From NCBI GenBank assembly GCA_903868035.1, contig CAIPTQ010000185.1:1-32852 (forward strand): a stretch of 32,852 nucleotides of DNA. The letters run 5' to 3'. This DNA comes from an uncultured Phycisphaerales bacterium (GTDB lineage Bacteria; Planctomycetota; Phycisphaerae; WQYP01). Made by a program: the position numbers and the translations under genes. Shown piece by piece: positions 1,808-32,852 of this stretch (positions are counted from its first letter, which is position 1; each line of letters starts with the position of its first letter). The notes below the pieces were generated by a model that was given only the letters and a program-made list of their open reading frames with translations, was not told the origin of the DNA and ran no database searches.

Positions 1808-1809
1808 AC

Positions 1810-2211: not shown

Positions 2212-2229
2212 TAGCTGGCACCCGCCCCC

Positions 2230-3719: not shown

Positions 3720-3733
3720 CCGCAAGCTTGCGG
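3720..3733. repeat. Perfect 14-bp palindrome in the divergent intergenic region
   Basis: CCGCAAGCTTGCGG is its own reverse complement. It lies in the 3607-3807 gap between the divergent hypothetical gene and the PL4 lyase, about 75 bp before the lyase ATG. It could be a regulator site or a member of a dispersed palindromic family. I see no strong -35/-10 pair in this gap. Confidence 0.4.
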
Positions 3734-3807
3734 TATTCCCGCCGTTGATCCATATTACACACATCACACGGCCACTTTTCCCTACAGATCCGCGATAGGA
3801 GCCGATT

Positions 3808-5835: not shown

Positions 5836-5858
5836 AGTTTGTGGTTTGTAGAAGGTTT

Positions 5859-5906
5859 GTAGTACAGCCTTTAGGCGGAATTGTTCGTAGTACAGCCTTT
5901 AGGCTG
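5859..5906. repeat. Two 18-bp direct repeats with a stem-loop
   Basis: GTAGTACAGCCTTTAGGC occurs exactly at 5859-5876 and 5887-5904, with a 28-bp period. The second copy extends to a perfect hairpin, CAGCC-TTTA-GGCTG (5893-5906). In the first copy the outer pair is broken. The pair fills the gap between the PL4 lyase stop and the TPR gene ribosome-binding site. It could act as a weak terminator or be a REP-like dispersed element; there is no T-tract. Confidence 0.55.
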
Positions 5907-5935
5907 TCGTCTATCGATCATGGCAGGAGACCCAG

Positions 5936-7090: not shown

Positions 7091-7115
7091 TGCGCTGCGG
7101 ATGCAATGCGTATAA

Positions 7116-7847
7116 TCAAGTACGGCGGTTCCGCCGCATGCCCAATACCACCAGCGCCGCACCCAGCCCCCAAATCGCCGCCGGCTCCGGCACGATCGTC
7201 AACGTGACCTCGGACGAATACATCAGCCCGTTATTGCCCAGCGTCTCATACGTGAAATTAGGCCCGTAATACGCATCCCATGTGGCCGCGTCCGACAGGC
7301 TGCCGATCATCGTCGCCTGGAAAGTGGAACTGTCCCCCGCATTGCCTATTGCCGAGAATTCAAACGTGCCGATCAGCACACGCCACGTGCCCGAACCCGG
7401 GGCCGTTTCGGTGGGCATGATCCCGTGAGTTGTGGGCGTGCCGCCCTGCGGCGTGAGGATCGGGTCCAACATGGTTTCGTAAAGTGATGCCGTATCCACG
7501 GAAAACGGGGGGACAGGATCGGGCGTGGTATTGACCGGGCCGTCAAACAAACTGTTGGGCGTGATGCCCGTGATTCGCACCGCCGTGTCCGAAGTCGTCT
7601 TCTGCAGCAGCACGCCGACGAGCGCCAGCCCATTCTGGCTGTTCAGCCGCGACGTGTCCGCCTCCGTGACCGTCTCCTCAAAATACACCGGCACGCTCAC
7701 CGGAACGCCCGGTGTGATCTCGTAGCCCGCCGCGTCCAGCGTGAAGCTGTAGATGAGCGCGGCGGGTGCGCGCCCGGCGCACGCGGCCAGCGCCGCCGCT
7801 CCGAGTAGACCGCCCAGCCATTGCTTCATGCCCATCGTGTCACCCAT
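7116..7847 (-). CDS. PEP-CTERM sorting-signal protein
   Basis: A secreted protein of about 240 residues. The N-terminus has a signal peptide (WLGGLLGAAALAACAGRAPA). The C-terminus has the tripartite PEP-CTERM signal: VPEP, the hydrophobic stretch AAIWGLGAALVVLGM and the basic tail RRNRRT. In bacteria with exosortase this directs processing and surface sorting, usually alongside exopolysaccharide. The middle is a beta-rich domain with no family I recognise (ITPGVPVSVPVYFEETV, SSTFQATMIGSLSDAATWDA). The first ATG (7847) is 3 nt after the stop of the giant gene. ATGs at 7835 and 7829 are also possible, and the last gives the most usual signal peptide (MKQWLGG). The tight spacing suggests co-transcription with the giant gene. 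No exosortase gene is in the window. Confidence 0.82.
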   Translation of the reverse strand: MGDTMGMKQWLGGLLGAAALAACAGRAPAALIYSFTLDAAGYEITPGVPVSVPVYFEETVTEADTSRLNSQNGLALVGVLLQKTTSDTAVRITGITPNSLFDGPVNTTPDPVPPFSVDTASLYETMLDPILTPQGGTPTTHGIMPTETAPGSGTWRVLIGTFEFSAIGNAGDSSTFQATMIGSLSDAATWDAYYGPNFTYETLGNNGLMYSSEVTLTIVPEPAAIWGLGAALVVLGMRRNRRT

Positions 7848-7850: not shown

Positions 7851-10800
7851 TCAGATACGCTTGCCCAAACGCTTCGTGAACTGCACGTAATCGACAATTG
7901 TGATGACGCCGTCGCCGTCAAAGTCGAACCCGGCCACAAAGCCCGTCTCGCCGTAGTGCTTGTTGAGCGCCTTGCGGAATGCCGCCAGGTCGTTGCTGCC
8001 CACGTAGCCGTCGCCGTCGATGTCCCCAAACAGCCGGTGGAAGACGCTCGTCGTGTCGCCGCCGGCCATGGTCTGGGTGCCCGTGACGAAGACCAGGTTC
8101 GCGTGCAGAACCAGGGTGTAGCTGCCGTCCATCAGCGAGGCGCCCCGCGTGATCGATGCGCCCTCCGTACCGGCGCCCGAGAACGCCAGTACAAACGTCT
8201 TGTGGTCGCCGGAGGGGTTCGTCACCGTCGTGTGTATCGCATCGCCCTTGGAATTGACCAGCGTCACGGCATTGTCCGCCAGGTGGTCGATCGGCGCGCT
8301 GAACGTGTAGGTGACACTCGTCACCTCGGAGCGCTGGGCCGTGCCGTCGTCGATCTGCACCGCCACGTTGACGTTGACCGCGGAGACCGTGACCGTCGTG
8401 CTGGCCACGCCCACGCCGCGCAGGTTGTCCATCACGCGGATCGTGATCTTGTACGTGCCCGCCAGGGCGTAATTGTGGCTCAACGCGAAGGTCTTGTTGG
8501 CATCGCTCACCGTCAGCACCGCGAAGCCCGCCCCGTCGCCATAATCCACCAGCCCCGTATGCGTCTCATTCGCGCCCGGATCGGCAAACGCACCCGTGGC
8601 ATTCATATCCTGGCCCGCCGTGGCCGCCAGCGCGGGCGCCACGCTCACGGTCGGCGGAGCGTTGGTCACCACGACGAACGACGTATACAACCGCGAGCCG
8701 CCATCCTTGTCGAAGATACGCGCCCGCACATTTTTCACGCCCGGGGTGCCCAGGTACGCCGCGGGAATGACCGCCGTGGGCGACGTGCTGCCGGTGATCT
8801 CGAACGTGCCGTCGCCGTTGAAGTCATAGCTGTAGGTGAATCCCGCAGCCAGGTCGGCCGGCGAGGGATCATTCTGCTGGCTGACGGTGATATACGAGGT
8901 GGAGCCTTCCTGGCACGTGCCGCCGGTGACCACATGCGCCGTGGGCGCGACGTTGGTCACCGTCACCTGGAACCCTGCGGACTTCGATGCCTGCTGGCTG
9001 TCGGTCACGGTGACGGTAACCGTAAACGAGCCGTTGTCCCGATACATATGCCCCAGCGAAATCGTCTGATCCACATTCACGCCCACGGCCTGCGCCCCGC
9101 CGCCGTCGCCGTAATCCACCGTGGCCGTCCACGAATCCCCCACGTCCGGATCGATCACGGTCACTGTCCGGGTCAGCCAACTGCCTTCCCGCACGCTGGC
9201 GCTGTCGCCCACCGCCAGGTCCGGCGCGGTGTTGAACACCGGCACGACAATCTGCGCCTGGGCCGCCGTGGGTGTCTGCTGGACGTTGCCCGACGCATCC
9301 GTGGCCATGCTATAGAAGCCGTAGGTGTGCCCTTGTGCGCCCTGATAGGTCGCCGTCACCTGCGTGGTCGCCCCCAGCCACAACCCAAACGCCCCGCCAT
9401 CAACGGACACGTAAATATCAAAGAACGCCAATCCCGTGCCGCCCACATTATCCTGCCCGGACCAGGCAACCGGAATCTGCGTGCTGGTGGCCGTCGCCGG
9501 CAGCGGCTGAACGCTGCTGCTGGGCGGTGTGGAATCGACATTGAGGTCGAAGTTGGCAATCTTGGTGAGTTCCGCATTGCCGACATTATCCGTGGCGCGG
9601 TAAGTGAGCCGTACATGGCCGTTGTTGGCGATGGTGAAGGCTTGCGTATACGTCATCCATGCCCCGCCGTTGACGGCATACTGAATCAGGGAAATGCCCG
9701 AAGCACCAGCCTGATCGGTGGCCGTCAGCGTGATGACCACCGGCGTCTGATACACGCCGCCGGCATCGGTCGTACCGGCATAAGTCGCCTCGGTCAGCGG
9801 CGCAATCACATCCACTTCAAAGGCCAGATCCAGCACATTGGAGAATGCCGAGGCGTTGTTCGTGGCATCCACGGAACGCGCCTTGATGCTGTGATGCCCC
9901 TGCGTGAAGTACATGCCGTCATACGTGAACGCCCCGGCATCATCAGTCGTGGTATCGCCGACCAGGACATCATCCACATACAGCTCAATGCGGGTATTGG
10001 CATCGCACGTGCCGGTGATGTTGATCGAGCGGCCCGTCGTGACCGGATTGGCCGAGGCCGCGATCTGCGGCACCGCCGGCGGAGTGCGATCAATGTGGAA
10101 CGCAACCTGAATCGTGTGCGCCAGCGGATCGCCGGTGATCGCATCCGTGCCGGTTACCGTCAGTAGCCCCGTGTAATCGCCCTCCAGCGCCTCCGCCTCC
10201 ACCGTGAAGTGTACCGCGATGTTGCTCGACTGCCCGGGGTTCAGGGCCCCATGGGCCAGGCTTGTGGTCAGGCCGCTGATCGGCAGCACGTTGCCGGCCG
10301 AATCCGTCAGCGTCCCCAGCGTGGCCTGCATATTGTTGATCCCCACGATGCCGCCCCATTCCAGGGCATCCAGCGTAAAGGCCTGCTCGCCCGAGCCGGT
10401 CGTGATATCAATGCTCTCAGTGGAAGTCGCCAGCAGCGCCGGCCGGTAGGGAATTTCCAGCAGCGCCACATTAAACAGATCCGTCGCCAGAGCGGCATTG
10501 ACTTTCGCCACAATGCGATACCGACCCGCGGCCAGCGAAGTAAGCGTAATCACCTGCCGCGCCCCGGCGGCACCCGAGTAGGTCGCCCCCGGAATGCCGA
10601 CTTCATCCGCGGCCCCGTTCAACCCGACATGCCGACCCTGCGCGTCATACAAGTGCAGATCGATATCCGCGCCGTCCGCCTGGGTAAGCAAAATCCGAAT
10701 CGCGGAAATATTCGAACCAATATCCACATAGCGCTCAAAGCTGGTGTCCTGCCCGACCGGCCCGCCCAGCGGCTGCGTGGCCGTCTGCCCGCGATACTGG

Positions 10801-13800
10801 GCCAGTTCCCCAGCGGTGCCGGCATACATATGCGCGTAATACGGACCCGCAAACCCGCGCGACAGCGATACCGGATCATACGCGTCAAACGTGATATCCA
10901 GGTCATAACCGCTGTTGCCGAAGAACGCCGACCGCGGCAGCGTCAGCATCACCTTCGAAGTCCCCGTCGCGCCGGCCGCCAGCGATGCCACCGTGCCCGT
11001 GAACGACGCGATCAACAGCTCGCCGGCATACACATTCACCGTCGGCGTGATCTGCAGGCTGATGCTGCTGGTGTTGGTGATATTCATCTCCCCGATCGAC
11101 AACGCAATGGGATCGGCGGCATTGGCCACCGCATCCTTAAAGGTCAACGACTGAATCGCCAGCGTCACCGCCGGGTCGATCGCGCGGTGGGCAATGATGT
11201 AATCGATATGGTTCTGGATGTCGAAGAACATCCGCCAGATGCCGTTGGTTTCTTCCTGATGCTGCTGCAGGTACTTGGCCGCGGAACGGAAAAGATTCAA
11301 ATTCATGGACCATTCGGCGTTCTGCATCGTGTTCAGAGCATCGATCCACGCCGCCACGGCATCGCTGCTCACTTTCGCAAAGTACTGCATGAACGGATCG
11401 CCCATCGGCCCGGCCAGGCCGCCAATCGCGTTGGCGGAAGTGGCCATGAAGCTCACCAGCAACGCGGTGCCCACGGCGTTCCAGTGCATGGCGAAGTTGT
11501 CCCACTGCATGACTTCCAGACGGTTCATGGTGCGCCAGTTGATGAATATGTTGCCGAAATCCCACGTCTGCTGATATACCGGCCGCCAGCCGGTGCCGTC
11601 TAGGGTGTTCTCGCCGGCGGCGAACCACCAGGTTTGCAGGGTGGCGATGAGGTTCTGCGTGCCGCCCGCGCCCGTGCCCAGCCGCTGCATCGTCGTGGTG
11701 AGGGCCGTGAATTCCTTATAAAGTGTGTCGATCGGGAACAGCGCCGAGGGCTTGTCCCACAGCAGTTGCTGCTTGGTATAGCTGACCATCTGGTCCAGTT
11801 CGCTCTCCAGGTCCGCGATGCCCATGATGTTCGCCCCGCCCCGGGCAATAACCGCATCCAGCATCGCTGTGACCTGGTCCGACGTGGGATCGTCCGGCAA
11901 CGCCGCAAAATCGTCCCACGCCAGGTCGGAACGGATCCGCGTGTACGTCACCTGCGTTTCCAGATAGCCCTCATACTCGGCCACCGATGTCGTGTTATCC
12001 TGAAGCAGTTCGCCCAGCTTCTTATAGAGCAGTTCGATGGCGGACTGGCTGGCGCGCTGGGACAGGGCGGCATCCAGAACACTGTTGAACTGTCCGCCAA
12101 ACTTGTTCATGTTGGCGGTGAATTTCTGGATGTTCTTGACCATCTCGCGCACGGCCGTGAATTGCAACAGAATGTTCTCTCCCGGAACCCCGCCGGCCAC
12201 AACCCATTTCGTGATGCCCTTGGCTAGGCTCTTGGCGCCCATGACCAGCGAGACCCCGGTCCGCAGCATTTGGCCGAACATGTTATACAGCTGCACGCCC
12301 AGGTCCATGTTCACCAGCGTCTTGGACTCCCGCAGGATCCGTGCGAAACCTACATAGAACTCCGCCAGGAAGTGGATTTCGTTTTGTATCTTGTCCTTGG
12401 CGGCAACCAAAAGCTGATCCAGGGCCGTGGCCAGGTCCGCCATCGAACGTGAGCCGACAAACTGCTGCACCACCGGAGCATCAAACGTCAGGCCGCTATC
12501 CGTGCCCACCTGGGCGTTGCCGGAGGTCAGCGTCGAGGTGATGGCGGAGATATCGACAACGTTCGCGAAACGCAGGATCCAGACATTGTACGCCGTCTGC
12601 GTCGCGCCCATTGGCAGATCCACAAATATGGCCGACTGCGGGTAATCCAGCGTAAAGGCTCCGCCGCCAACTGAAGGCGGGGCAATCTCGACCCGCTGGG
12701 CCGTCCCCGGACCCAGGTTCGTCACGATCACCGTGATACCCACCGCATGGTCATCCCCGTTGAACGACTGGTTCACTTCATACCGAATCACCAGTTGCGC
12801 CTCGGGCTTCACTGTAAATGTCTGCGGCGCAAACGTCCGCGTATCCACCTGCCCGTTGATCTGATACGTCAGCTCCAGCGCCACGCGATACTGCAATCCC
12901 GCCGCCTCCGTCCCGCCCAGGTTGTTCCCCCGAATCGGCCGGATCGTCCACGATGTCGTCAGCGCCGCCCCCGCCGCCAGCGAACCCGGCAGCGTCCCGG
13001 CCGTCACCTCAAATAACGCCGTCACATCCGCTCCCGCGCCGTTGGTGATGATCAGCCGCGCGCCGGTGATCCCGATCGTCTGGGTGATCACGTTCGTCAG
13101 GTCCAACTTCAGCGCCACCGCTTCGCCGTCCAGCAGCACATCCTGCGTCAATTGCGTCCGGCCCACATCGTGCCCCGTCGCGCCCGTGCCCGTCAGGTTC
13201 ACCTGACTGAACCACTGATCGATGAAGCGCTCGCCGTACAGAATCGGTCCCGTCGGCCACGGCCCGGAATAGGGCACATAGTTATACGGCTGCCCATCCT
13301 GCATATTGGCGTCATCTACCACCCGCACGCGGATCGGGAAGAACAACTCCGTATACGCTTCCCCGCCCAGCAGCGACCCCGCCGTGATATGCAGGCTGCC
13401 GTCAATGATCTGGTCGCCCGCCGGCAGTGCCGACACATCCACCACGATCCGGTACGACAGCACCACCGACGAATGCGCCGGTATCTTCTCGAGTTGCAGC
13501 GACTGGAGGCTGATGAACCCCGCGATCGCACCGCTGGCCGTGATCGAAATATTATGAATGTCCGACGTCGTCACGTTGTTCAGCGAGAACGCCGTGTTAT
13601 CCGGGAATTCGCGATTCAATTCGAGGCTCAGGTACGAAAGCCGTTGCTCCAGGAATCCCGTCCGCTGGATCACATATTCGGCGCCCGGACGATCCGTGAT
13701 CAGCCGCGTGTCCGCATTCGTGGCCATCACCAGTCCCAGTTGCGTCTGCCCCAGGTTCAGCGGATCAGTCGAGGTGGACTGCGACACGTTCAGCGCGAAC

Positions 13801-25800: not shown

Positions 25801-28800
25801 AACGACTGCGCCGCGTAGTTGTATACGCAGAACGAATAGTCGAATTCCGACGCCGGCCGCCCCGTGACCGAGAACCCGAACCGGTCGCTGTAGCCGTCCC
25901 ACGAATCAATGATGTACAGATCCCACACCAGTTCCACGCCGCTGTGTGCCGGCAGGCCCGCCAGCGTCAGCGTCGCCGTGTCGTTCGAGAACTCGCCCAG
26001 GAACGTCGTCGAATAATCGCTGATGCCCGTCAAACCCGTGGACCACCCCGGACCCGCGCCGGCCTCAAAATCATTCGCATACGCCAGCCGCGCCAGCGGA
26101 TTGCCCGCCACATCCCGTATCGCCGGCAGGAACGTCAGCGTGTACGTCCCATCCGCCGTCTGCAGCGGGAAGCTCACGTCAAACGTCTTCTCATCCACCG
26201 CCGTCACCGTGACCAGGCTGCTGTCCACCGTCCCCGACGGCGTCGTCACCTGCACCGCCGCATTGGTAAAGCTCCCCGCCGCAATCGCCTCGTTGAACAC
26301 CACCCGCACGCTGCTCACCGTGTAGTTGATCTGCCCGTTGGGCGTCATCGTCATCACCCGCGGCCCCAGCCGATCCTCAATCACCACCGCCGCCGACCCC
26401 GCATTGTTCCCTTCATTCAACTCCGGCAGCGCCGCCCCGCCGTCCGCCACCACATGGAAATACAACGTGTCTCCAGCGGAGACGCGACCGTAAGGGAGCG
26501 TTAAAACCTGCGGCACCACCACATCCAAACTCGCCGCATAAGTCGCACCCGCCGCCAGCGTGCTCATCCCCGCCGCGCGCGTCCCCAGCAACACCGCCGT
26601 CCCATCGAACGTCGGACTACTAGATATGTACACATAATCCGTCCACGCCCACAACGCCGCCCCGTCCCCGTCATTGTGCCCCGTCCACGTCACGTGTACG
26701 ACCTGCCCCACGCCGGTCGTAATGACCTGCGGATTCACATCCGTGATCGTCAGGTCCGGCGCCAGCATGTGTATCGCCGCGCTCCCCAGGTTGTCCGTGC
26801 CGTCCGTCTCCGGCTGCGCGCTGTTGCTGTTCACCTTCACAACAATGTAAGAAAGCCCATGGAGCGTGGGGGTCGGAAGTGTTAAGGCGAGGTGCGCGGT
26901 GTAAGCGTTTAGTGCATCCGGAGCCGAGCGAGGGCCGCTCGGGACCGAGGTTTGAGCGCGCGAGGAAGAGGTTACGTTAGTCAAAAAGACGTAATTGCCG
27001 TGCAAATCAGGGGTGTCGGACAGGTATATTGCATCCACCCAGTTCGCCAGCGCATCGCCCGCCAGATTATTCTCCACCTGATAATCCACTTGGACCGCCT
27101 GCCCCCACGTCGCCACCGCATCCACGGAAACACTTGTCACCACAAGGTTTACCGGCAGCAGTGTGATCGCCTGTACAAACGTATTGTTCGTATTGTCCGT
27201 TTCCGGCTGCGTCCCATCCGCATCCGTCACAAACACCAGATACCGCGTCCCAAATCCCATGTCCATCGGGATCGTTATTGACTTCCCGGAAGTCGTATAA
27301 GTGTTTGCCGGTGAACCACTTACAGCAGCCAGTCCGCTGTGTGCCGCCTGGTCCTGCCACGTCAACTGCCGGTAATGTGACGTCTGCCCCACATCATCCG
27401 TAATATACACCCGGTCCACCCACGTCCCTAAAGCCTTGCCCAGACCGGAGTTAGACGTCGTCCAGCCCACCGTGATCGTCTCCCCCACGCTCCCCGTCAC
27501 CGGTGCCGTCACCCCCGTCACCGCCAAATCCGGACCCGGCAAATCAATTCCTATCGCCCATAAATTATTGCTTTCGTCCCCTTCATAAATCTGGCTGTTG
27601 GCGTCACTTACGAACAGCAGGTAATACATCCCCGCCGCCCGATCCAGCGGAATCGTCACATCCCGCGTGACCGTATACGTTCCGTTATGCGCCAGCGGCA
27701 AATACGCGCCCGTCCCCACCGTCACCAGCGGAATCGCCGCGCTGGTCAGATGATCGACCGGCGCGAGATAAACCGTGTCAAACCAAGCACTTAAGGCTGT
27801 CGCTGGCCCGATGTTCTGCACATCCCACGAGACCGTAATCGTCTGGCCCCAGTCCGCCGCCGGTGGTGCCCGCGCCGCCGTCGTCGTTAAGTCCGGCAAC
27901 TGCCCGGAGATAACGCTGAAATCAAACGGATATACATTGTTTGTTTCGTCCGTCTCCGCCTGCGTGTCCCACCGATCTGTCACCACCAGCAGATAGTAGT
28001 GTCCGGCGGCCACGGTGGGTATCGCTAAGTCAAGGCTGCCACTGTAGTTATCACCCGCCGCCAGGGAGCTGGCATGCGCCAGTTCGCCCAGGAACAGCGC
28101 CGAGTTATCCAGGAAATTCTTGGTCGACAGGAACACCGCATCCGTCCACCCGTCGGACGCCGCGCCCAGACCCTGGTTAAGCACATTCCAATTCACCGTA
28201 ACTGTCTGTCCTGAAAGTGCTTGCGCCGGTGTCGCACTGCCGGAATCCACCTGCAAATCCGCCCCGCTGATCGGGGCCGTGGACAGCACCCGTGTCGGCA
28301 TGTTGGGCTCGGCCCCGAACGTAAGTCTTTGATCCGCAAGGGTTTGATCGAAGCAAGTATTTCCATACGTCTCATCAAACCTAAACGCATACACCAGCCC
28401 CGCTTCCGCCCCGGAATACGTGCGATCCAGACCCGCATTGATCTGCTCGACGCTCCGCGCCGTGTTCCAAATCCGCACCTCATCGATGGTCCCGGCAAAG
28501 AACCGCGTCGTTCCCAAACCCGTGTCATTATTGAACTTACCGACGAAGAAGGAAGTGGCATCCGTCCCCGCCACCGGCGTATACGCAAAGTCATCCACCA
28601 GCACGCCATTAAGATATGTACTTACGTGATCCGCCGTATACGCCACCGCCACGTGATACCACTGCCCCGCCACGAGACTCAAGCCATTGAGCTTGCGGAA
28701 CCCATCTCTATATTCCACCGTGAGTTGCGCTCCCTCCGCCCATACGTTGACGCCAAATCCCACCCCATGCCCGCCGCCCACATCCGCCGACATCACATTC

Positions 28801-31800
28801 GACGGGAAGTCCGTCCCATCCGCCCGCAAAACCGGCTGCACCCACGCCTCAATCGTCAGCGGCAACACCCCCGTACCCGCCGCGCCGCTGATGACATAAT
28901 CCCCTGTGCCATCAAAACTTAACGCATAACCCGCCGGATGCGCCGGCGACTTGAGGAAGAACCCCAACGTGCCCGCCTGGGCCGCATAAGCACTGGCACC
29001 GCCCGCCACGCTCGAGCCCGCAAACCCGGTGTAACCCGACGCATCATTGAAGTACACCGCCACCCGTCCGCCGCCGCCGCCGACACCGTATCCGCCGTAG
29101 CGCCAGTTACCACCGTTCGCCTGATAAGTCCCTGCGCCAGCAAGAGTTGCAACCGTCACCCAAATCGATCCCCCCGCCCCGCCCGACCCGCCCGGAGAAC
29201 CACCCACAGCGCCATTGGCGGAAATAGTTCCGTTAAGTGTAAGCGTGCCGGCAATCACCAGGCGGATCGCGCCACCGCCAGCGCCGCCGAAGTCTTCACT
29301 GTGGTCATCACAAGACCCGCCGGAGCCCAGGTCCGTGGGATAAACCGCTGAGCCATAAGGACTTCCGCCCGTCCCGCCGTAGGCTTCGTGGCCGCCGGCA
29401 CCGCCGTAACCACCGCCCGCACCCCGCCACCCGCCCCCATAGGCAATGCCGCCGCCCGGACCGCTTCCAACTGCATACGGACTACCACCGCCCGCATAAC
29501 CAAAACCGTCTGCCGAGATACTAGAACCAGCGTCCACCACACCCTCGGCAGCATACAACGCCACTCCCGCTCCAGCCCAGACACCAGAAATCTGGGTATT
29601 TGTGTTCTTTCCCAAACAGTAAATCGTGGAATTGCCGGTGATCGTCAGCGCGCCATCAATCCGCAAAACCGAACCACCGCCAAGCGTCAGAGTGGCGGCA
29701 TCCGCAAGTGTGAGCGCGCCAACATGCAGTTCGGTATCCTGACCCAGGACCAGATTTTCAAATATGCACAGATAATTGCCCGAAACCGAAGTATCAAAGA
29801 ATACAACCGACCCGAACTGCGCGGCACCAGCACTTGCACCAGGAGCAGCAGTGGAAGCCGTGAATCCGGTGAAGCCGCCGCCATCGTGGTAATAGACGGC
29901 AATGCGTCCGCCGCCGCCACCGGCACCATAGCCGCCATAACGCCAGTCGCCGCCGCGGGCTTCCAAATGGCCCGCGCCGGTGAGTACGGAAGTGGTGACC
30001 CAGATGGAACCGCCGGAACCGCCGGAGCCCGCGGGCCAGCCGCCGGCCGTGCCGTTGGCGGAGATGACGCCATCAAGTGAAAGCTGTCCAAGAACGACGA
30101 GGCGGATGGCCCCGCCGCCGTTGCCGCCCCAGTCTTCAGAATGATCATCAGATGAGCCGCCGGAACCAAGGTCCGTGGGCTGCGTCCAAGAGCCGTAAGC
30201 TGCGCCGCCGGTGCCGCCGTAGGCTTCGGTGCCGCCGACACCGCCATAACCGCCGCCCGCGCCATGCCACCCGCCGCCATAGGCGATGCCACCACCGGGT
30301 CCATTGCCAGCCTGGTATGCCACCGATCCACCGGTGTAGCCCTGGCTGTCAGCGCTGATGCGCGACCAGGCGTCAACAACCATGTTGCCGACGTTGAAGG
30401 TCACGCCCTGACCGTTCCAGCCAGTGGTTCCATCAGGCAGGAGGACTTGGGCGGTGGTGTTGAGGCTCTGGCAGATGATGTAGGTCGCGTGGGCGGAACT
30501 GCCGGTGATGGAGACACTGGCGGCGGAGATGATTGAGCCGCCGCCGATGGTCAGCGTCGCGCCGTTGCGGATGATAAGATTCTGGACCACGGTGAGGGTG
30601 GTGCCAGCGGCAAGGGTGAGCGTGGCGCCAGACAGCGCCGGATCGCCGAGAGTCACGCTCAAGAAGGAATATGCGCCCGTGGGCAGGGCGAGATTTTCGT
30701 GGACGAACAGGCGCATCTGGCCGTCGCCGGTGCCGGCGGAAGTGTCAAAGAAGGCGACGGTGCCGCGAGTACCGGACTGCCAACCGGAGCCGGCGGCCGT
30801 GGTGGAGGCCAGGTAACCGGAGAATCCGGAACCGTCATGGTAATAGATCGCGATGCGTCCACCACCGCCGCCGCCGCCAGCCCAATTACCAGAGGAACCG
30901 CCGGAGGCCGCGAAATGGCCAGTGCCCGACAGCGTACCAGTGGTCACCCAGATCGAACCGCCCGAACCGCCCGCGGCATGGCTGGGGCCGTTGGTGCCGT
31001 TGGCGGAGATCAGGCCGTTGAGGGCCAACGTGCCGGCCACAATGATGCGGATGGCCCCGCCGCCGGCGCCGCTGGGGTTGCTTTCGTAGGAGGATCCGCT
31101 GGAGCCCAGATCAACCGGCTGAAGAGCGGAACCGTAAGTGGAACCGGCACCGTTGACCCAGTCATTGCCCGAGCCACCGACGCCGCCATAGCCGCCGCCA
31201 CCCGAGCCATTGCCGTTGTTGTTAATGCGCGACGGTCCTCCCGGTCCGATGCCGCCGCTGCGCCAAGCGGTTTGGGTGGCGTAACCCTGGCCATCGGCAT
31301 TGATGTAGGAACCGCTTTCGAGAGTGAGGTTGCTGGCGATGAGTGTAACGCCGACACCGGCCCAACTGGTGGAACCGTCCGGATTGGTGATCAGGCCGGT
31401 GTTGTTCCTGGAGAGAGTGTAGAGGGTGGAGTTGCCGCGGATGGAGAGCAGACCATCGACGGTGAGAGTCGAACCGCCGCCGAGGGTAACGGTGGCGGCA
31501 TCATCAAGGGTGACGGAAGCAAAATGCAAGGCGGAGTCATTGGGGAAGACGACATTTTCGTAGATGAAGAGCCGATTGGGCGTGATGCTGGTATCCAGGA
31601 AGACGACCGAACCGGTGGCACCGTAACGTCCGCCCCAGCCCCAGCCACCGGCGGCCGTGGTAGTGGTGAAACCAGTAAACGTGGAAGCCTCATCGAAATA
31701 GACGGCGATGCGTCCGCCGCCGCCGCCGCCGCCGGCATAGGCGCTGGCCGAGCCGCCGCAGGCTTCCAAATGGCCGCTGCCGGCCAACGTGCCGGTGGTG

Positions 31801-32852
31801 ACATAGAGGGAACCCCCGGAACCGCCGCCGGAATGGGCGGAGCTGTTGTTGCCGTTGGAGGAAATGACGCCGTCGAGGAGCAGCAGACTCGAGACGTTGA
31901 GCGTGATGGCCCCGCCGCCGGCACCGGAGGCAGCGCCTTCCCAAGTCGAGCCGCTGGAGCCCAGATCGGTAGGCGTCATGAGGGTGCCGTAGGTGGTGCC
32001 GCCGGGATTGACCCAATCCTGGCCATAAGAACCGGCACCGCCATAACCGCCGCCGCCGCCGCCGTTACCGTTGGCGTTGGGTCGAATCGACGCGCCGGGT
32101 CCGATGCCGCTGGTGCGGTAGGCGGTCTGGCTGGCGTACCCCTGGCCATCGGCGGAGATGCGCGAACCGGCATCGACGGCCAGGTTCAACACATTCAGGG
32201 TCACGCCGCTGCCGGCCCAACTGGTGGAACCGTCGGGATTGGTTAACTGGCCAGTGTTGTTCTTGGACAGGGTGATCAAAGTGGAACTGCCGGTGATCCG
32301 GAGGAGGCCATCGGTGGTGAGGGTGGTGCCGCCACCGAGCGTGACACTGGCCTTGTCATCGAGGGTGACATTGGTGAAATGGAGCGTGGAATCGGCGGGG
32401 AAGATGGCGTTTTCGTAAACCGAGAGGCTCATGGGTGCGGTGCTGGTGTCCAGGAAGAGGACCGATCCGACGGCACCATAGTAGCCGTTCCAGCCCCAAC
32501 CGCCGACAGTAGTGGAGAAGACAAATCCGCTGAATGCCGGCGCGGCCGCGTAGTAGACCGCGATGCGTCCGCCACCGCCGCCGCCGGCATAGGCGCTGGC
32601 CGAACCGCCGCAGGCTTCCAAGTGGCCGCTACCGGCCAGGGTGCCGGTGGTGACATGGAGGGAACCGCCGGAGCCGCCGCCGGAATGGGCGGAGCTGTTG
32701 TTGCCGTTGGAGGAGATGACGCCATCGAGGAGCAGCAGACCCGAGACGTTGAGCGTGATGGCCCCGCCGCCGGCACCGGAGGCAGCGCCTTCCCAAGTCG
32801 AGCCGCTGGAGCCCAGATCGGTGGGCGTCATGAGCGTGCCGTAGGTGGTGCC
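7851..32852 (-). CDS. Giant secreted multidomain protein (at least 8333 aa, N-terminus outside window)
   Basis: One uninterrupted frame of 25 kb, of the order of 0.8 MDa as seen, with its 5' end beyond the right edge. The ATG at 32831 is not the start. The 21 bases before it continue in frame and encode GTTYGTL, the same residues that precede the matching Met one repeat later. Order from N to C: five glycine-rich units; LamG-like domain; five CARDB; SbsA-type Ig, lectin-like module, SbsA-type Ig; two CARDB; three Ig/FN3 pairs; CARDB; two homologous superblocks, each PKD plus four CARDB plus unnamed beta modules; a helical segment of about 450 residues; Ig, PPC-like and PKD-like modules; and a dockerin-like Ca-binding pair at the end. 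No enzyme domain is seen. It is most likely an extracellular adhesin, matrix or fibre protein. The export signal would be off-window. The block features below divide it up. Confidence 0.93.
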   Translation of the reverse strand, partial: GTTYGTLMTPTDLGSSGSTWEGAASGAGGGAITLNVSGLLLLDGVISSNGNNSSAHSGGGSGGSLHVTTGTLAGSGHLEACGGSASAYAGGGGGGRIAVYYAAAPAFSGFVFSTTVGGWGWNGYYGAVGSVLFLDTSTAPMSLSVYENAIFPADSTLHFTNVTLDDKASVTLGGGTTLTTDGLLRITGSSTLITLSKNNTGQLTNPDGSTSWAGSGVTLNVLNLAVDAGSRISADGQGYASQTAYRTSGIGPGASIRPNANGNGGGGGGYGGAGSYGQDWVNPGGTTYGTLMTPTDLGSSGSTWEGAASGAGGGAITLNVSSLLLLDGVISSNGNNSSAHSGGGSGGSLYVTTGTLAGSGHLEACGGSASAYAGGGGGGGRIAVYFDEASTFTGFTTTTAAGGWGWGGRYGATGSVVFLDTSITPNRLFIYENVVFPNDSALHFASVTLDDAATVTLGGGSTLTVDGLLSIRGNSTLYTLSRNNTGLITNPDGSTSWAGVGVTLIASNLTLESGSYINADGQGYATQTAWRSGGIGPGGPSRINNNGNGSGGGGYGGVGGSGNDWVNGAGSTYGSALQPVDLGSSGSSYESNPSGAGGGAIRIIVAGTLALNGLISANGTNGPSHAAGGSGGSIWVTTGTLSGTGHFAASGGSSGNWAGGGGGGGRIAIYYHDGSGFSGYLASTTAAGSGWQSGTRGTVAFFDTSAGTGDGQMRLFVHENLALPTGAYSFLSVTLGDPALSGATLTLAAGTTLTVVQNLIIRNGATLTIGGGSIISAASVSITGSSAHATYIICQSLNTTAQVLLPDGTTGWNGQGVTFNVGNMVVDAWSRISADSQGYTGGSVAYQAGNGPGGGIAYGGGWHGAGGGYGGVGGTEAYGGTGGAAYGSWTQPTDLGSGGSSDDHSEDWGGNGGGAIRLVVLGQLSLDGVISANGTAGGWPAGSGGSGGSIWVTTSVLTGAGHLEARGGDWRYGGYGAGGGGGRIAVYYHDGGGFTGFTASTAAPGASAGAAQFGSVVFFDTSVSGNYLCIFENLVLGQDTELHVGALTLADAATLTLGGGSVLRIDGALTITGNSTIYCLGKNTNTQISGVWAGAGVALYAAEGVVDAGSSISADGFGYAGGGSPYAVGSGPGGGIAYGGGWRGAGGGYGGAGGHEAYGGTGGSPYGSAVYPTDLGSGGSCDDHSEDFGGAGGGAIRLVIAGTLTLNGTISANGAVGGSPGGSGGAGGSIWVTVATLAGAGTYQANGGNWRYGGYGVGGGGGRVAVYFNDASGYTGFAGSSVAGGASAYAAQAGTLGFFLKSPAHPAGYALSFDGTGDYVISGAAGTGVLPLTIEAWVQPVLRADGTDFPSNVMSADVGGGHGVGFGVNVWAEGAQLTVEYRDGFRKLNGLSLVAGQWYHVAVAYTADHVSTYLNGVLVDDFAYTPVAGTDATSFFVGKFNNDTGLGTTRFFAGTIDEVRIWNTARSVEQINAGLDRTYSGAEAGLVYAFRFDETYGNTCFDQTLADQRLTFGAEPNMPTRVLSTAPISGADLQVDSGSATPAQALSGQTVTVNWNVLNQGLGAASDGWTDAVFLSTKNFLDNSALFLGELAHASSLAAGDNYSGSLDLAIPTVAAGHYYLLVVTDRWDTQAETDETNNVYPFDFSVISGQLPDLTTTAARAPPAADWGQTITVSWDVQNIGPATALSAWFDTVYLAPVDHLTSAAIPLVTVGTGAYLPLAHNGTYTVTRDVTIPLDRAAGMYYLLFVSDANSQIYEGDESNNLWAIGIDLPGPDLAVTGVTAPVTGSVGETITVGWTTSNSGLGKALGTWVDRVYITDDVGQTSHYRQLTWQDQAAHSGLAAVSGSPANTYTTSGKSITIPMDMGFGTRYLVFVTDADGTQPETDNTNNTFVQAITLLPVNLVVTSVSVDAVATWGQAVQVDYQVENNLAGDALANWVDAIYLSDTPDLHGNYVFLTNVTSSSRAQTSVPSGPRSAPDALNAYTAHLALTLPTPTLHGLSYIVVKVNSNSAQPETDGTDNLGSAAIHMLAPDLTITDVNPQVITTGVGQVVHVTWTGHNDGDGAALWAWTDYVYISSSPTFDGTAVLLGTRAAGMSTLAAGATYAASLDVVVPQVLTLPYGRVSAGDTLYFHVVADGGAALPELNEGNNAGSAAVVIEDRLGPRVMTMTPNGQINYTVSSVRVVFNEAIAAGSFTNAAVQVTTPSGTVDSSLVTVTAVDEKTFDVSFPLQTADGTYTLTFLPAIRDVAGNPLARLAYANDFEAGAGPGWSTGLTGISDYSTTFLGEFSNDTATLTLAGLPAHSGVELVWDLYIIDSWDGYSDRFGFSVTGRPASEFDYSFCVYNYAAQSFPRTPDAALNFYNGDWVDDVYRNVTYGMMDGGTQLQVGFYGRNLEGAWNEGWGLDNVKVYLSGAGGGNESESFTIERFGPSVIGTAPAAIVYDPFNSMDVTFNEPINPATFTTSAATLTGPNGVVALTSVQHMAGNTWRVGFATQVQGGVYTLTVGPSVTDRAGNLMNQNGNLINGETDDAYVRTVELKIANLAPTIDVSTVAAAWGQEITVTWTVTNHGTGYANADWIDKVYLSGSATSVTADASGFADEAITAQTPLAPGAYYSIRRTYTVPADAVRGARYLVVVTDKNGAQIETDKTDNLVSAPITITAPDLTVGEITWLPVTLRDGQQVTFSARIDNVGEGATVGSFLVRFEVDGQFLGRQTVATLVAGGGSVTVTQAWTVMPGTHSVRVVADENNQAGEIDETNNSRTAALPTVADETAPVITALMPQDQKRVRASVLLQATATDNVGVAAYEFAIMPAGGNWTTLGSNASGSWSLVTTGYADGSYQIRVTAADAAGNASTLAQTYVIDNTAPAARVLAATEREFGVDLSWSAAAETDFAYYRLYRSTTAGHGYGAINGAMTGTTFRDTSVLVGQRYYYVLAAIDQVGNVGAYSNEVTAVPLGDVTAPAISGFNPASGTRWATDIMLSVQATDNVGVASYVFDYSTDGQTWARIAGGAAAAVAWNVRGLGTNVYQVRASVYDAAGNFSVMTRSYTVDHDAPGVPANLRVSAAQLALVVAWDSVVASDFRYYGLYKSVNGGAMTFLLNTTSTVYIDGAVTAGGTYAYQVVSVDDLGNVSAASAAASGSPLLDVTAPVMRAVSPAEGTATNGILNIQGAATDNVRVASFAFYYRLVGTLPWNAIGTDSVPTIIGATWTGQYAWDTRSVAEGMYTVRVVAVDPGGNTSEMLRGCQVDRTAPDMPGMMVVDNLLSGGRLDISWEATTAGDWAGYGVYRSENENGPFVRLTTTPQLSYEDSGLTNGTTYYYTITVWDRVGNESAMPAAVSGAPTAECDVAVQGMAFSPANPVINRQGTVVITLANAGPANASGSVRLYDGAAEAGNLIGTATFAAGAGVWTTVNVAWTPATAGAHTLLAALGGITPTDTDSSNDSETALVVVNVPPVAVAGGSRTGDWNTAVDFSGAQSTDADGLIVGYHWDFGDGQSALQGVTTHAYMLPGVYTATLTVTDDRGATATDTAQVTIRDTRADLVVSNLAWNPVEPQERDDVTITATIANVGNGPTLFGFFATYYIDGQYAGYQRVNGLLAKDGTTTATFHWTATKGLHTVRVAADDIQNNVAETNENNNDLTTNLTLQQIYFPDLAMTDLACVIPADGVVSSQQALVATAVIHNLGDADAQDFWVTLYLDGQQAARQHVNTLVVGAQQTLTFNFTPVGGVHTLRVMADDPVAVVNEGANGRGNNAASLQLPALTLNYPDLVLESLNVLPRETVLSDGTSLDMSAVVRNGGTVAVEKRFTVTFYADGAYVGSRDITYLAAGATATVALQTPATPGTHNLRAVVDEAQAIDESNRGNNEQTVTTAALTMMYADLTVTNITWLPVTPGYGQTVYFTVTVSDLTVVSTLDHCIFALYLDNGEIGRQELPRITGHSSVSFVMQWSAVTAPATLGHPNVHTIKGVVDIGGAIHEETKENNTYVSVAGFQVSDNFVISLDAGGGAADELGGLLYTNTQVAQFTAKVARGSNANIAVTPADGVSVKWTVIKFGEAYVDEQGNTQRHPDEEIVPNRDMTWNPVEQTFGGTVDLITFGTGNYAVRVTADDGVNAAAANKNFSVIEEVNFTLTTDKPVYLRAQPVTITGEVTTLGGNAIVGAKVFIMISKGEAEFSEYLATQNFFDQNTKKMTTYTDADGKFSVVNYPLWGDVGHYAVNAYIYSHLYGTSGQCGYGIIGMDLTPRNYAVEALKNSSRNTVVTLGNPSDDPLTNVRVTFEDLDPNDNVTATLIGNVPNVLEPGASIPLTVAANFPESAPDSAAFRITVTTAEGLTATSTVRYTLRTPTASPRLNPGDTSLALHPGDTVVRTITLTNGGMGTMTAVDLIPPSILPWVSFSGLTVTTLAPGASTTFNVVIAPPADTPLGLYVDRVGVTDGTRTAYTGLSVEVTSATRGALSFVVSNDAGQVVANAEITLIGQTPVHAVSASGAESYYYNRYYVTTNAAGIATAAEMVLDTYDYAVAAPGHDRYTGNVAVEPGSEAKIVTVVLTAVPLSYKWTVTPITIEDRYEITLNLTFAVDIPKPQFAFLPPWVCVPQVVVTDMYEEVIIVNPSLVELHDVQVVTVGVHGGMTLSSGGLIGTLLPQSSVVLALGIMPGDYGYLNGRDTYLHITGTYVAFDPQTLLPLDEEMALAGNIPLVNPRATNDVVHVTMGDDSVDLKLPNLDDMQGDGLDKLPDGGGGGGGGMGGTVTELVKLQINQTATMEREGFDAQLELTSGINQPLVGLSIAPRVTDELGRDVTDRFYIVPPEVTGIGAIDGSANLDAYGRMTGRWTLIPGDGLGGTDLAGKTYYVKAVMSYFVGEGYHQVITNEVAIVIHPQPKLYFHYYIPQNVLADEPFKLGLLVENVGDGIARNLTIASGQPKITENDSGLLIKFEIVGCSFGSQTGDVITLVMGDVQPHMDVNGYWIMTSSLDGRFVEFTATIKHLAYKGIEINPLILGLTTEIIERDYLFADARDPNNCFTMIDRDGDGFPDYLINLTSGLHLPIIVPSDVTVTKSPTPDSRTMDMTVAATDGYVCVILPDAMPTSNLRSITRHNADGTETTLSGNNFWKKDGKIYFVDKLGYIDADGYSHATAGLYTLDFRSALAVKELVSAPIEFNIIAVDTDSLVETNNIAEYILHLPPEGSNSQLATYELKKPIFYIPTPMTAGQKAAIQAKIRNDGVDPETGVLDFYDQADGGVETLIGSVDITALKGLHVQTAVIDWTPTVAGQHTLRARVRNSDSPGYQMEQTVTVNAKPFADAGADFFADVDTTATFDGTRSSDENGYVRLFMWDFGDNTIWSNGPRPTHTYTHSGTYRVHMIVKDDNGAMTEDVMQITVNETRPDLFAEALYASPTTPDEGQDVTITGRIRNVGASASESFYVGLYVDNAYAGLVQVTAPIVPTAYVDVNFHWTATTGNHIFKMVANDMGGFDEPDLLNNVRSTALNPNQIYFPDLLVNAITESAAPSTALAWGTPITLNAEIKNSGTGQAGRFRVDFLVDDQYVGYATVNGLDYADGANTTTASVTWTPTPGAHKITALADHPFAYIAEMDKTNNTLDYAAPALNLTYADLAVTALQFWPADGRLEAGQPLVAYVTVSNNSTVNVPVEFPVTLFANNVQVATANVPNLAAGASTTVTLYWNAEAGTYNLRATANPDGLIPETATNNNSMGQLGMVIQRLAPDLAVQPITITGAARMGEDVTLNIRLANVGTGQTGNPFNVRLYVNEVLVNTVRVTQNILGGRFYNWSPTWTVAGTNPAQFAVRVVADANGELAESATANNVREAAFAIQPSYLLTLPAVPALLTTDPLHITLGVHDSTNPGQALGDTSGVTAMVRLYDASNTLLSSTPMTFDGAAFVLAGGALPAGNYRAVVVITGPRQTVQRTLTLTVAQDYAVTTGVSPVGDPGRSILTTSDGLLISGTVLRVDSTPVAGAAVTLDVTHDGSTRRFTATTAADGSYTYVFAPLPNDAGAFTVTASANVDALTRSASADFAIQGLLLTVDSADVSVSAHAAAQRTFTLLNLGTLAQESLLVTITRTAGAAGTAGASAVPVTLAAGASTTFTVTFSPGDYVGSAEFTVAVASSVSGVGATVERAIRVVSNPPLASLTVIGTEELDVGLLRGQVWEHILVLRNDGYADLTDLAFVNPEIPWITVYQPAVTLLHPGDTATVRVLFTPPADADMTGYADGFTINSNAGARVVPIHVEVTRSSTLNLQVTLASRFDTPIAGATISLTLVSSIYRYKANPAVVAASQHLTGTTTSAGVYTFMGMLAGRYQVEIRAANCDTISEIWDLTPTSGTAAKAVTMNLNPFALNVSQSTSTDPLNLGQTQLGLVMATNADTRLITDRPGAEYVIQRTGFLEQRLSYLSLELNREFPDNTAFSLNNVTTSDIHNISITASGAIAGFISLQSLQLEKIPAHSSVVLSYRIVVDVSALPAGDQIIDGSLHITAGSLLGGEAYTELFFPIRVRVVDDANMQDGQPYNYVPYSGPWPTGPILYGERFIDQWFSQVNLTGTGATGHDVGRTQLTQDVLLDGEAVALKLDLTNVITQTIGITGARLIITNGAGADVTALFEVTAGTLPGSLAAGAALTTSWTIRPIRGNNLGGTEAAGLQYRVALELTYQINGQVDTRTFAPQTFTVKPEAQLVIRYEVNQSFNGDDHAVGITVIVTNLGPGTAQRVEIAPPSVGGGAFTLDYPQSAIFVDLPMGATQTAYNVWILRFANVVDISAITSTLTSGNAQVGTDSGLTFDAPVVQQFVGSRSMADLATALDQLLVAAKDKIQNEIHFLAEFYVGFARILRESKTLVNMDLGVQLYNMFGQMLRTGVSLVMGAKSLAKGITKWVVAGGVPGENILLQFTAVREMVKNIQKFTANMNKFGGQFNSVLDAALSQRASQSAIELLYKKLGELLQDNTTSVAEYEGYLETQVTYTRIRSDLAWDDFAALPDDPTSDQVTAMLDAVIARGGANIMGIADLESELDQMVSYTKQQLLWDKPSALFPIDTLYKEFTALTTTMQRLGTGAGGTQNLIATLQTWWFAAGENTLDGTGWRPVYQQTWDFGNIFINWRTMNRLEVMQWDNFAMHWNAVGTALLVSFMATSANAIGGLAGPMGDPFMQYFAKVSSDAVAAWIDALNTMQNAEWSMNLNLFRSAAKYLQQHQEETNGIWRMFFDIQNHIDYIIAHRAIDPAVTLAIQSLTFKDAVANAADPIALSIGEMNITNTSSISLQITPTVNVYAGELLIASFTGTVASLAAGATGTSKVMLTLPRSAFFGNSGYDLDITFDAYDPVSLSRGFAGPYYAHMYAGTAGELAQYRGQTATQPLGGPVGQDTSFERYVDIGSNISAIRILLTQADGADIDLHLYDAQGRHVGLNGAADEVGIPGATYSGAAGARQVITLTSLAAGRYRIVAKVNAALATDLFNVALLEIPYRPALLATSTESIDITTGSGEQAFTLDALEWGGIVGINNMQATLGTLTDSAGNVLPISGLTTSLAHGALNPGQSSNIAVHFTVEAEALEGDYTGLLTVTGTDAITGDPLAHTIQVAFHIDRTPPAVPQIAASANPVTTGRSINITGTCDANTRIELYVDDVLVGDTTTDDAGAFTYDGMYFTQGHHSIKARSVDATNNASAFSNVLDLAFEVDVIAPLTEATYAGTTDAGGVYQTPVVITLTATDQAGASGISLIQYAVNGGAWMTYTQAFTIANNGHVRLTYRATDNVGNAELTKIANFDLNVDSTPPSSSVQPLPATATSTQIPVAWSGQDNVGGTGLAFFDIYVSVDGGAFGLWLGATTQVTATYQGAQGHTYGFYSMATDASGNVQQTPTAAQAQIVVPVFNTAPDLAVGDSASVREGSWLTRTVTVIDPDVGDSWTATVDYGDGGGAQAVGVNVDQTISLGHMYRDNGSFTVTVTVTDSQQASKSAGFQVTVTNVAPTAHVVTGGTCQEGSTSYITVSQQNDPSPADLAAGFTYSYDFNGDGTFEITGSTSPTAVIPAAYLGTPGVKNVRARIFDKDGGSRLYTSFVVVTNAPPTVSVAPALAATAGQDMNATGAFADPGANETHTGLVDYGDGAGFAVLTVSDANKTFALSHNYALAGTYKITIRVMDNLRGVGVASTTVTVSAVNVNVAVQIDDGTAQRSEVTSVTYTFSAPIDHLADNAVTLVNSKGDAIHTTVTNPSGDHKTFVLAFSGAGTEGASITRGASLMDGSYTLVLHANLVFVTGTQTMAGGDTTSVFHRLFGDIDGDGYVGSNDLAAFRKALNKHYGETGFVAGFDFDGDGVITIVDYVQFTKRLGKRI
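7854..8030 (-). other. C-terminal dockerin type I-like domain
   Basis: The last 59 residues hold two Ca-binding loops of dockerin form, DIDGDGYVGSNDLAAF and DFDGDGVITIVDYVQF, 21 residues apart, followed by a basic tail (TKRLGKRI). In clostridia dockerins dock enzymes to cohesins of a cellulosome. In PVC bacteria they end many non-cellulosomal secreted proteins and the partner is often unknown. No cohesin domain is visible in this window. Confidence 0.85.
8031..11119 (-). other. C-terminal Ig-like, PPC-like and PKD-like modules
   Basis: In order: beta-rich modules; a PPC-like domain (ADIDLHLYDAQGRHVGLNGA, then LAAGRYRIVAKVN); an Ig-like domain (IELYVDDVLVGDTTTDDAGA, HSIKARSVDATNNAS); a domain with TATDQAGASGISLIQYAVNG (OmpL47-like pattern); an FN3-like domain; PKD-like domains (YGDGGGAQAVGVNV, FNGDGTFEITG, VDYGDGAGFAVLTV); and an Ig-like domain with VQIDDGTAQRSEVTSVTYTF just before the dockerin. 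That last arrangement is one I associate with large planctomycete proteins. Confidence 0.65.
11120..12475 (-). other. Helical segment of about 450 residues, family not recognised
   Basis: From about VVQQFVGSRSMADLATALDQ to HRAIDPAVTLAIQSLTFKDA. Unlike everything around it, this stretch is rich in Leu, Met, Gln, Asn, Lys and Trp in helical patterns: LVAAKDKIQNEIHFLAEFY, NMFGQMLRTGVSLVMGAKSL, VREMVKNIQKFTANMNKFGG, ALNTMQNAEWSMNLNLFRSA. One segment (AVGTALLVSFMATSANAIGG) is hydrophobic but carries polar residues and is not a clear membrane helix. There is no motif I can name. Codons are mixed, not G-biased as in the superblocks. Confidence 0.6.
12476..16965 (-). repeat. Superblock 2: PKD, four CARDB and unnamed beta modules
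   Basis: Second copy of the arrangement in superblock 1. It has PKD (VRLFMWDFGDNTIWSNG), four CARDB modules joined by QIYFPDL, LTYADL and LAPDL, two Ig or regulatory-like modules (ISGTVLRVDSTPVAGAAVTL), a module ending PWITVYQPAV and ADADMTGYADGFTI, a regulatory-like module (LASRFDTPIAGATISLTL), and a module with RPIRGNNLGGTEAAGLQYRV. Offsets of matching motifs from superblock 1 are about 5.4-5.5 kb throughout. It lacks the EF-hand-like linker and leads instead into the helical segment. Confidence 0.65.
16966..17999 (-). other. Linker region with an EF-hand-like loop
   Basis: About 345 residues between the superblocks. It contains a Ca-binding-type loop, IDRDGDGFPDYLINL (near 17740-17785), with the DxDxDG spacing of EF-hand or thrombospondin type 3 loops. 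It then has beta-rich sequence with CVILPDAMPTSNLRS, FWKKDGKIYFVDKLGYIDAD and NNIAEYILHLPPEG. I recognise no named domain over most of it. Confidence 0.5.
18000..22489 (-). repeat. Superblock 1: PKD, four CARDB and unnamed beta modules
   Basis: Starts with a PKD domain (STDADGLIVGYHWDFGDGQS). Four CARDB modules follow, joined by QIYFPDL, LNYPDL and MYADL. Next come a stretch with an MG2-like strand pattern (TTDKPVYLRAQPVTITGEV, then DADGKFSVVNYPL), an Ig-like module ending PWVSFSGLTV and ADTPLGLYVDRVGV, a carboxypeptidase-regulatory-like module (VVANAEITLIGQ), a Gly run (DGGGGGGGGMGG, near 18630) and a module with PGDGLGGTDLAGKTYYVK. The same order recurs about 5.4 kb further on in superblock 2, so the two arose by internal duplication. 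Coding third positions are strongly G-biased here. Confidence 0.65.
22490..22818 (-). other. Single CARDB domain of the giant protein
   Basis: CARDB-like module starting ECDVAVQGMAFSPANPVINR and ending DTDSSNDSETALVV, just before the first PKD domain. It is shorter than the N-terminal CARDB modules. Confidence 0.6.
22819..24545 (-). other. Three alternating Ig-like and FN3-like pairs
   Basis: Three similar units. Each has an Ig-like domain with DNVGVAAYEF, DNVGVASYVF or DNVRVASFAF, followed by an FN3-like domain with YYRLYRS, YYGLYKS or GYGVYRS and a Tyr-rich strand (RYYYVLAAIDQVGN, GTTYYYTITVWDRVGN). FN3 domains in bacterial secreted proteins act mostly as spacers or glycan contacts. The units are clearly related to each other, so this is an internal triplication. 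Confidence 0.75.
24546..25237 (-). other. Two CARDB domains of the giant protein
   Basis: CARDB modules six and seven, beginning at NLAPTIDVSTV and APDLTVGEITW and ending at ETDKTDN and EIDETNN. They link the SbsA-type Ig pair to the Ig/FN3 block. Confidence 0.8.
25238..26373 (-). other. SbsA-type Ig, lectin-like module, SbsA-type Ig
   Basis: Two Big_5/SbsA-like Ig domains, recognisable by VRVVFNEAIAAGSF and MDVTFNEPINPATF with GTYTLTF and RDVAGNPL-type ends, flank a module of about 170 residues (about 25590-26090). The module starts YANDFEAGAGPGWS and has WDLYIIDSWDGYSDRFGFSV and EGWGLDNVKVYL. It looks like a jelly-roll domain seen in other large secreted proteins; its ligand is unknown. 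Confidence 0.65.
26374..28262 (-). other. Five tandem CARDB domains of the giant protein
   Basis: Each module of about 120 residues starts with a PDLxV-type strand (ADLQV, PDLTT, PDLAV, VNLVV, PDLTI) and ends with the CARDB signature around an E-D/E-x-NN turn (ETDETNN, EGDESNN, ETDNTNN, ETDGTDN, ELNEGNN). CARDB is an Ig-like adhesion module of prokaryotic surface proteins. Modules three to five carry extra residues in loops, encoded by codons unlike the rest of the gene (see findings). Confidence 0.85.
28263..28949 (-). other. LamG-like concanavalin A-type domain of the giant protein
   Basis: Begins YALSFDGTGDYVI and continues LPLTIEAWVQP, GQWYHVAVAYTADHVSTYLN and FFAGTIDEVRIWNTARSVEQ, the standard order of a LamG/LamG_3 jelly roll of about 220 residues. 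Such domains bind glycans or proteins outside the cell, often with Ca. It separates the glycine-rich N-terminal array from the CARDB chain. Confidence 0.85.
28950..32852 (-). repeat. Five tandem glycine-rich repeat units
   Basis: N-terminal part of the giant protein. Unit starts, marked by the PTDLGSS-like motif, are at 32831, 31979, 31124, 30185 and 29345, giving periods of 852, 855, 939 and 840 nt; the last unit is cut short where LamG begins. Each unit has GAGGGAI, LLLDGVISSNGN, GGSGGS, GHLEA-GG, GGGGGRIAVYY, a V-FFDTS strand, TLGGGS-L and a closing Gly/Tyr-rich stretch (GGGYGGAGG). The pattern of short strands broken by Gly/Asn turns suggests a beta-helix or similar stacked fold. The first two units are nearly identical over their first third. 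Part of another unit runs off the right edge, so the true number is larger. Confidence 0.85.

Follow-up and report, generated by a model that had tools for sequence, protein, structure and literature searches.

Giant proteins are already known in general from bacteria of the Planctomycetes-Verrucomicrobia-Chlamydiae (PVC) type: giant genes have been noted in planctomycetes (PMC12288469), a protein of 39,678 amino acids (aa) is reported from Velamenicoccus (PMC10066038) and lengths of up to 85,800 aa have been given elsewhere (PMC12057145). The giants of the Omnitrophota and of Ca. Menyafoubacter are partly modular, some with LamG or dockerin (PMC10066038, PMC12057145), and Dockerin_1 is common in bacterial proteins longer than 5,000 aa, mainly from Planctomycetota (PMC11573180). 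A further class comprises giants with the LEPR-XLL domain (NF012209), which is reported in a protein of about 8,000 aa of a Vibrio (PMC10868602). Here we describe a new member of these giants, encoded on the 32,852-nucleotide (nt) contig CAIPTQ010000185.1 (hereafter the window), whose conserved core merits follow-up. The protein resembles the Omnitrophota and Menyafoubacter giants in size and partial modularity and the LEPR-XLL giants in size class; the LEPR-XLL domain itself is carried by four of its relatives, the N-terminus of the window protein lying beyond the window. It differs from the giants of Velamenicoccia, described as having few annotated domains and poor conservation (PMC10066038), by its conserved core, and from the Menyafoubacter giant of ~6000 aa, with its PL6 and Rhs-like parts (PMC12057145), by the absence of such an enzyme. 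It is encoded by the following open reading frame (ORF):

7851..32852, minus strand: giant ORF, 8,333 sense codons plus TGA, with its 5' side open at the window edge

Coding status and conserved core

An earlier note, made from the sequence of this DNA, had proposed a single intact frame, and translation agrees with it, the terminal TGA being the only stop. A stop-free run of 25 kb is not plausible as a product of chance, and the frames of the opposite strand over 7851-32852 reach at most 828 aa, as expected for a strand facing a coding one at 63% guanine plus cytosine (GC). GC peaks at the third codon position in 16 of the 17 blocks of the ORF (block 1001-1500 shows a tie with the first position), and this third-position content (GC3) is 0.63-0.79 in residues 1-2000 and 0.80-0.88 beyond. 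Over its terminal 284 nt, the repeat copy cut by the window edge shares 95% identity with its neighbour, and 11 of the 14 mismatches between the two are found at third codon positions (p=0.0007). Because the core (residues ~2,800-7,790) can also be aligned to 14 further giants of the database (28-47% overall identity), the ORF is a genuine coding sequence. The window edge falls within a glycine-rich repeat; therefore the true start of the protein is most likely placed beyond it, and 8,333 residues represent a lower bound. The ranking "among the largest bacterial proteins" given in the earlier note is nevertheless overstated, in view of the reported 85,800 aa (PMC12057145) and 39,678 aa (PMC10066038).

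Residues 3440-4700 were used as the query against proteins of comparable length, and the 602 candidates sharing most words with it were scored. At least 17 database proteins match (P0001-P0017), a lower bound since only these top candidates were scored. Fifteen of them (P0001-P0007 and P0009-P0016) are uncharacterised giants of 6,000-7,767 aa with a common core order, equivalent to residues ~2,800-7,790; twelve span the core, P0003 and P0010 start inside it and P0011 ends inside it. They share the core block order with the window protein and differ from it in being shorter and in their N- and C-terminal modules. As for the other two, P0008 has only PKD-like matches in common, whereas P0017 matches distantly and in part. 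The window protein exceeds all 17 in length. Three of the core giants carry names ("PKD domain-containing protein" twice and "CARDB domain-containing protein" once), and three of the 17 matches are assigned to organisms (Planctomycetota, Phycisphaeraceae and Verrucomicrobiota), which makes a PVC setting of the window protein likely, as judged from these matches.

The recurrence of the core bears on three points of the earlier note. The same block order, which it had advised looking for in other PVC genomes, was found in 15 of the 17 database matches, the three with organism names being PVC-type; the selection that it had proposed for the full length is supported, as constraint, for the long core. 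Its view of the arrangement as unfamiliar holds in that no paper describing the core family was found by title and abstract, preprints and most subscription journals being outside the search, and no text in the searched literature combines "CARDB" with "giant gene"; on the other hand, 15 database proteins display the core arrangement.

Two regions of the core are devoid of Pfam matches:

17373..18620, minus strand: highly conserved module, residues 4745-5160, with EREGF and DGDGFPDY-type motifs
11121..12512, minus strand: all-helical island (predicted), residues 6781-7244

Averaged in bins of 100 residues, identity is highest within the core at 3501-3600 (65%), amounts to 59-63% at 4801-5100 and drops to 18-31% over the helical island. 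Bins 4801-5100 retain 43-50% identity even in P0015 and P0016, the two most divergent of the aligned members, and the conserved module with its two motifs was found to be a trait of the family. When the 17 matches were searched with a piece of the helical island (7001-7200), a local match at E<=1e-3 appeared at the same place in nine of the 15 core members; in P0012-P0016 the island is placed by global alignment only, and P0011 ends before it. In P0013-P0016, in-order local matches at E<=1e-3 are lacking for parts of residues 5801-7200, which are likewise placed by global alignment only. Two members differ from the window protein inside the island: P0006 contains at about residue 6002 a zinc-peptidase-like insert (HEICHALGFG; its matrixin match is weak and under the cut-off), and in P0013 there is a long insertion of helical appearance on visual inspection.

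The core alignment and the tree leave out P0008, P0011 and P0017. The window protein and P0001 form a pair (100/100) in the resulting 15-row tree; four of the 12 inner branches are well supported and seven are drawn open, and the joining of the long branches P0013/P0014 and P0015/P0016 may be artefactual. Outside the core the picture is one of turnover. Only P0001 has in-order matches to the N-terminal part, from about residue 800. Glycine-rich repeats were detected by motif in five of the 17 matches, and additionally in P0006 by BLAST; dockerin-like loops lie near the C-terminus of six (five of them core members) according to a pattern of our own; and the NCBIfam cut-off of LEPR-XLL was passed by all four relative N-termini tested, which were picked by eye from the 17. 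The ends of the relatives otherwise vary. Since the core order is kept in 15 giants, glycine repeats occur in some and the ends vary, the core is, on this sequence comparison, inherited and the ends are exchanged. The match of the N-terminal part in P0001 only, together with the lower GC3 of residues 1-2000, is as accretion of the ends would give.

Close members of the family look rare in the genomes searched. Scans of genome_contigs and viral_contigs with the conserved module gave no relatives, and a whole-genome profile search found remote copies of it in seven of the 13 genomes behind glycine-repeat loci. Phylum-wide searches counted matches at E<=1e-10 with at most six candidates scored per genome, so that the counts are lower bounds: at least 10 of 392 genomes match in the phylum of G007 (one close and nine remote, <=150 bits), and the phylum of G009 gave at least 27 among 387 genomes, each match being remote (<=164 bits, with no close members). 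The close match is G124 (532 bits), with an open frame of 6,233 aa which is probably the same protein as P0009; within its order, one of 151 genomes matches, G124 itself. Relatives of the glycine-rich repeat of ~285 aa were found at 79 or more loci from many phyla, including Patescibacteria and archaea, with E-values that are relative to the candidate stretches and with the caveat that glycine-rich sequence may match loosely; two Chloroflexi loci among them hold remote relatives of the conserved module. Judged by these matches, the glycine-rich repeat is more widespread than the close core members.

Module anatomy and neighbouring genes

The remaining modules of the giant protein, from the N-terminal side, are the following:

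28953..32852, minus strand: glycine-rich units of ~285 aa, residues 1-1300, predicted all-beta, motif GGGG..RIAVY at 90, 375, 660, 978 and 1258, outermost copy cut by the window edge
28437..28913, minus strand: LamG-like jelly-roll domain, residues 1314-1472 (PF13385, E 4e-21)
26385..28259, minus strand: CARDB 1-5, residues 1532-2156 (self-built profile)
26100..26375, minus strand: SbsA-type immunoglobulin-like (Ig) domain (Big_5), copy 1, residues 2160-2251
25308..25577, minus strand: SbsA-type Ig (Big_5), copy 2, residues 2426-2515
24555..25229, minus strand: CARDB 6-7, residues 2542-2766; in-order matching to the other giants starts about here
22812..24530, minus strand: three tandem Big_7 and FN3-like pairs, residues 2775-3347
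22503..22811, minus strand: CARDB 8, residues 3348-3450 (self-built profile)
22245..22496, minus strand: PKD 1, residues 3453-3536
20883..22229, minus strand: CARDB 9-12, residues 3542-3990 (self-built profile)
18633..20855, minus strand: CarboxypepD_reg-like (under the Pfam cut-off) and NEW3-like modules, residues 4000-4740
15369..17267, minus strand: second block with CARDB 13, PKD 2 (5296-5380) and CARDB 14-17, the first-block order again ~1,843 residues later
12513..15365, minus strand: Ig/CarboxypepD_reg/NEW3-like stretch, residues 5830-6780
9549..9743, minus strand: OmpL47-type domain, residues 7704-7768 (NF047446, 72 bits, cut-off 40)
9237..9536, minus strand: FN3-like copy 4, residues 7773-7872 (self-built profile)
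8388..9233, minus strand: C-terminal PKD domains, residues ~7874-7965 and ~8060-8155 (the latter located by self-comparison)
7866..8027, minus strand: type I dockerin, residues 8276-8329 (PF00404, E 2e-7), with two calcium-loop-like motifs

CARDB domains were counted with Pfam in slices and with an iterative profile derived from the giant protein's own sequence, which fits its own seeds by construction. Pfam gives 16 stretches (4+2+5+1+4, one of them under the cut-off at E 0.0014) and the self-built profile 17 copies, in line with the about 16 of the earlier note. Its module list is also recovered: LamG, Big_5 (twice), PKD and Dockerin_1 are confirmed, together with Big_7 (three times), and FN3 is weak in Pfam (E 0.015), with four FN3-like units forming one internal family by the self-built profile. 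The absence of a catalytic domain is borne out at E<=0.01, a threshold at which no catalytic Pfam match was obtained across the whole giant protein; at E<=1 enzyme-named families matched the slices weakly only, all under the cut-off, and the domains above it are of Ig-like, lectin-like or docking kinds.

Self-comparison aligns residues 3467-3888 with 5310-5731 and 4294-4554 with 6091-6355. The order of one CARDB, one PKD and four CARDB domains followed by NEW3-like modules is thus present twice, ~1,800 residues apart, which suggests a block duplication inside the protein. This internal repeat, the all-helical island, the conserved module devoid of Pfam matches and the PEP-CTERM gene described below come in addition to the content of the earlier note.

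Three stretches match no named family. The conserved module gave no match in Pfam or PHROGs, the helical island matched no family and yielded no reliable fold match, and the glycine-rich unit is matched by no Pfam model in the giant protein; a PHROGs search of all three returned nothing. Against solved structures, the island obtained weak coiled-coil-type matches (best E 0.001), the conserved module nothing better than E>=0.14 and the glycine-rich unit no match. The predicted all-beta fold of this unit has its nearest likeness in the tapirin C-terminal domain and in autotransporter passengers, at a level that is not significant. A direct word-sampling search with the helical island found no relatives although family members carry the island, an empty result that is uninformative. 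The alignments of these stretches comprise four window units plus one unit each of P0001 and P0011 (glycine-rich repeat), the window protein and seven relatives (conserved module), and the window protein and nine relatives (helical island, without P0006 and P0013 because of their inserts and without P0014, P0015 and P0016).

The other features of the window are placed downstream of the giant ORF:

7116..7847, minus strand: PEP-CTERM protein, 243 aa (TIGR02595 above the cut-off, Pfam model under it)
5936-7090, plus strand: TPR protein, between the PL4-like and PEP-CTERM genes
3808-5835, plus strand: polysaccharide-lyase-family-4-like (PL4-like) protein, with CBM-like and fn3_3 matches
960-2221, minus strand: weak ParD-like antitoxin match (under the Pfam cut-off) beside a PIN-domain gene

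The first ATG of the PEP-CTERM gene is located 3 nt past the TGA of the giant ORF, and therefore both genes are probably co-transcribed. The PL4-like protein has weak matches (28-40% identity) in nine of 486 genomes (2 of 246 plus 7 of 240) and in none of five in another set. The ParD-like and PIN genes are likely a toxin-antitoxin pair.

Functional reading and its alternatives

Export of this giant modular protein by a PVC-type bacterium is suggested by its modules, by the PEP-CTERM gene next to it and by the LEPR-XLL domain at the N-terminus of four relatives; outside the cell it probably acts as a long arm. What the sequences show directly is the frame, the module content, the order of the core in relatives and the turnover of the ends, and from this we infer that the protein is exported, sits at the surface and adheres, and what each module does. 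Dozens of beads of Ig-like type (CARDB, PKD, FN3-like and Big) would build an elongated stalk, the all-beta glycine-rich repeats of the N-terminal side and LamG would bind surfaces or glycans, and the C-terminal dockerin could serve as a docking or retention element. The core of ~5,000 residues, with its conserved module and helical island, would represent the inherited working unit, and the ends lineage-specific binding or anchoring modules gained by accretion.

Several observations weigh against this reading. The N-terminus lies beyond the window and we infer the export of the window protein itself; no anchor was identified in the giant protein, and no cohesin was found among the Pfam matches in the window, the sole place checked for a dockerin partner. 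Ig-type modules occur in enzymes and toxins too, and the presence of two conserved regions without known function means that adhesion may not be the only role of the protein. The unnamed parts were modelled with intermediate confidence (predicted local distance difference test, pLDDT, 69.9 and 61.5). Regarding its relationships, the window protein and P0001 each have an amino-acid composition flagged as deviant in the tree, so their pairing may be inflated, and over the tree columns the window protein is closest to P0003 (55% identity).

An assembly chimera or frame accident fusing several real genes is extremely improbable: although the window ends in a repeat, the usual site of contig breaks, with 14 mismatches in 284 nt to the neighbouring copy, 15 other database proteins have the core in a single frame (12 of them over its full span), in-order matches in P0001 extend to the N-terminal part and third-position GC is coding-like nearly throughout. 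More room is left for a protein that is mainly a scaffold for polysaccharide breakdown, its dockerin and binding modules holding partner enzymes at the substrate in the manner of a cellulosome, for which the C-terminal dockerin, the LamG domain and the nearby PL4-like gene could speak. It is still unlikely, as only one dockerin is present and the Pfam matches in the window include no cohesin; the PL4-like gene, being encoded on the other strand, lies outside the operon of the giant, and dockerin-like loops, detected with our own pattern in only six of 17 matches, are not a core feature.

The helical island enters into two further alternatives. An inter-cell weapon, in which a long arm would bear an effector and the helical island would be its membrane-active or effector part, is quite unlikely. 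A long shot is that the core of ~5,000 residues represents an ancient machine passed on by inheritance and not a passive stalk, and that its conserved module and helical island would form a working head, the island being a slot for lineage-loaded extra parts (such as the peptidase-like insert of P0006 and the long insert of P0013) and the ends exchangeable targeting modules; if true, this would make the family a giant surface effector platform of PVC bacteria.

For the exported arm that we favour, it is the core that sets the family apart, since an order conserved over ~5,000 residues in 15 other proteins contrasts with the giant bacterial genes reported as strain-specific (earlier work quoted in PMC11573180) and with those of Velamenicoccia, reported as poorly conserved (PMC10066038). 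The core thus provides a defined and alignable family in which the function of a giant surface protein could be tested, with the two conserved regions that match no known family as targets.
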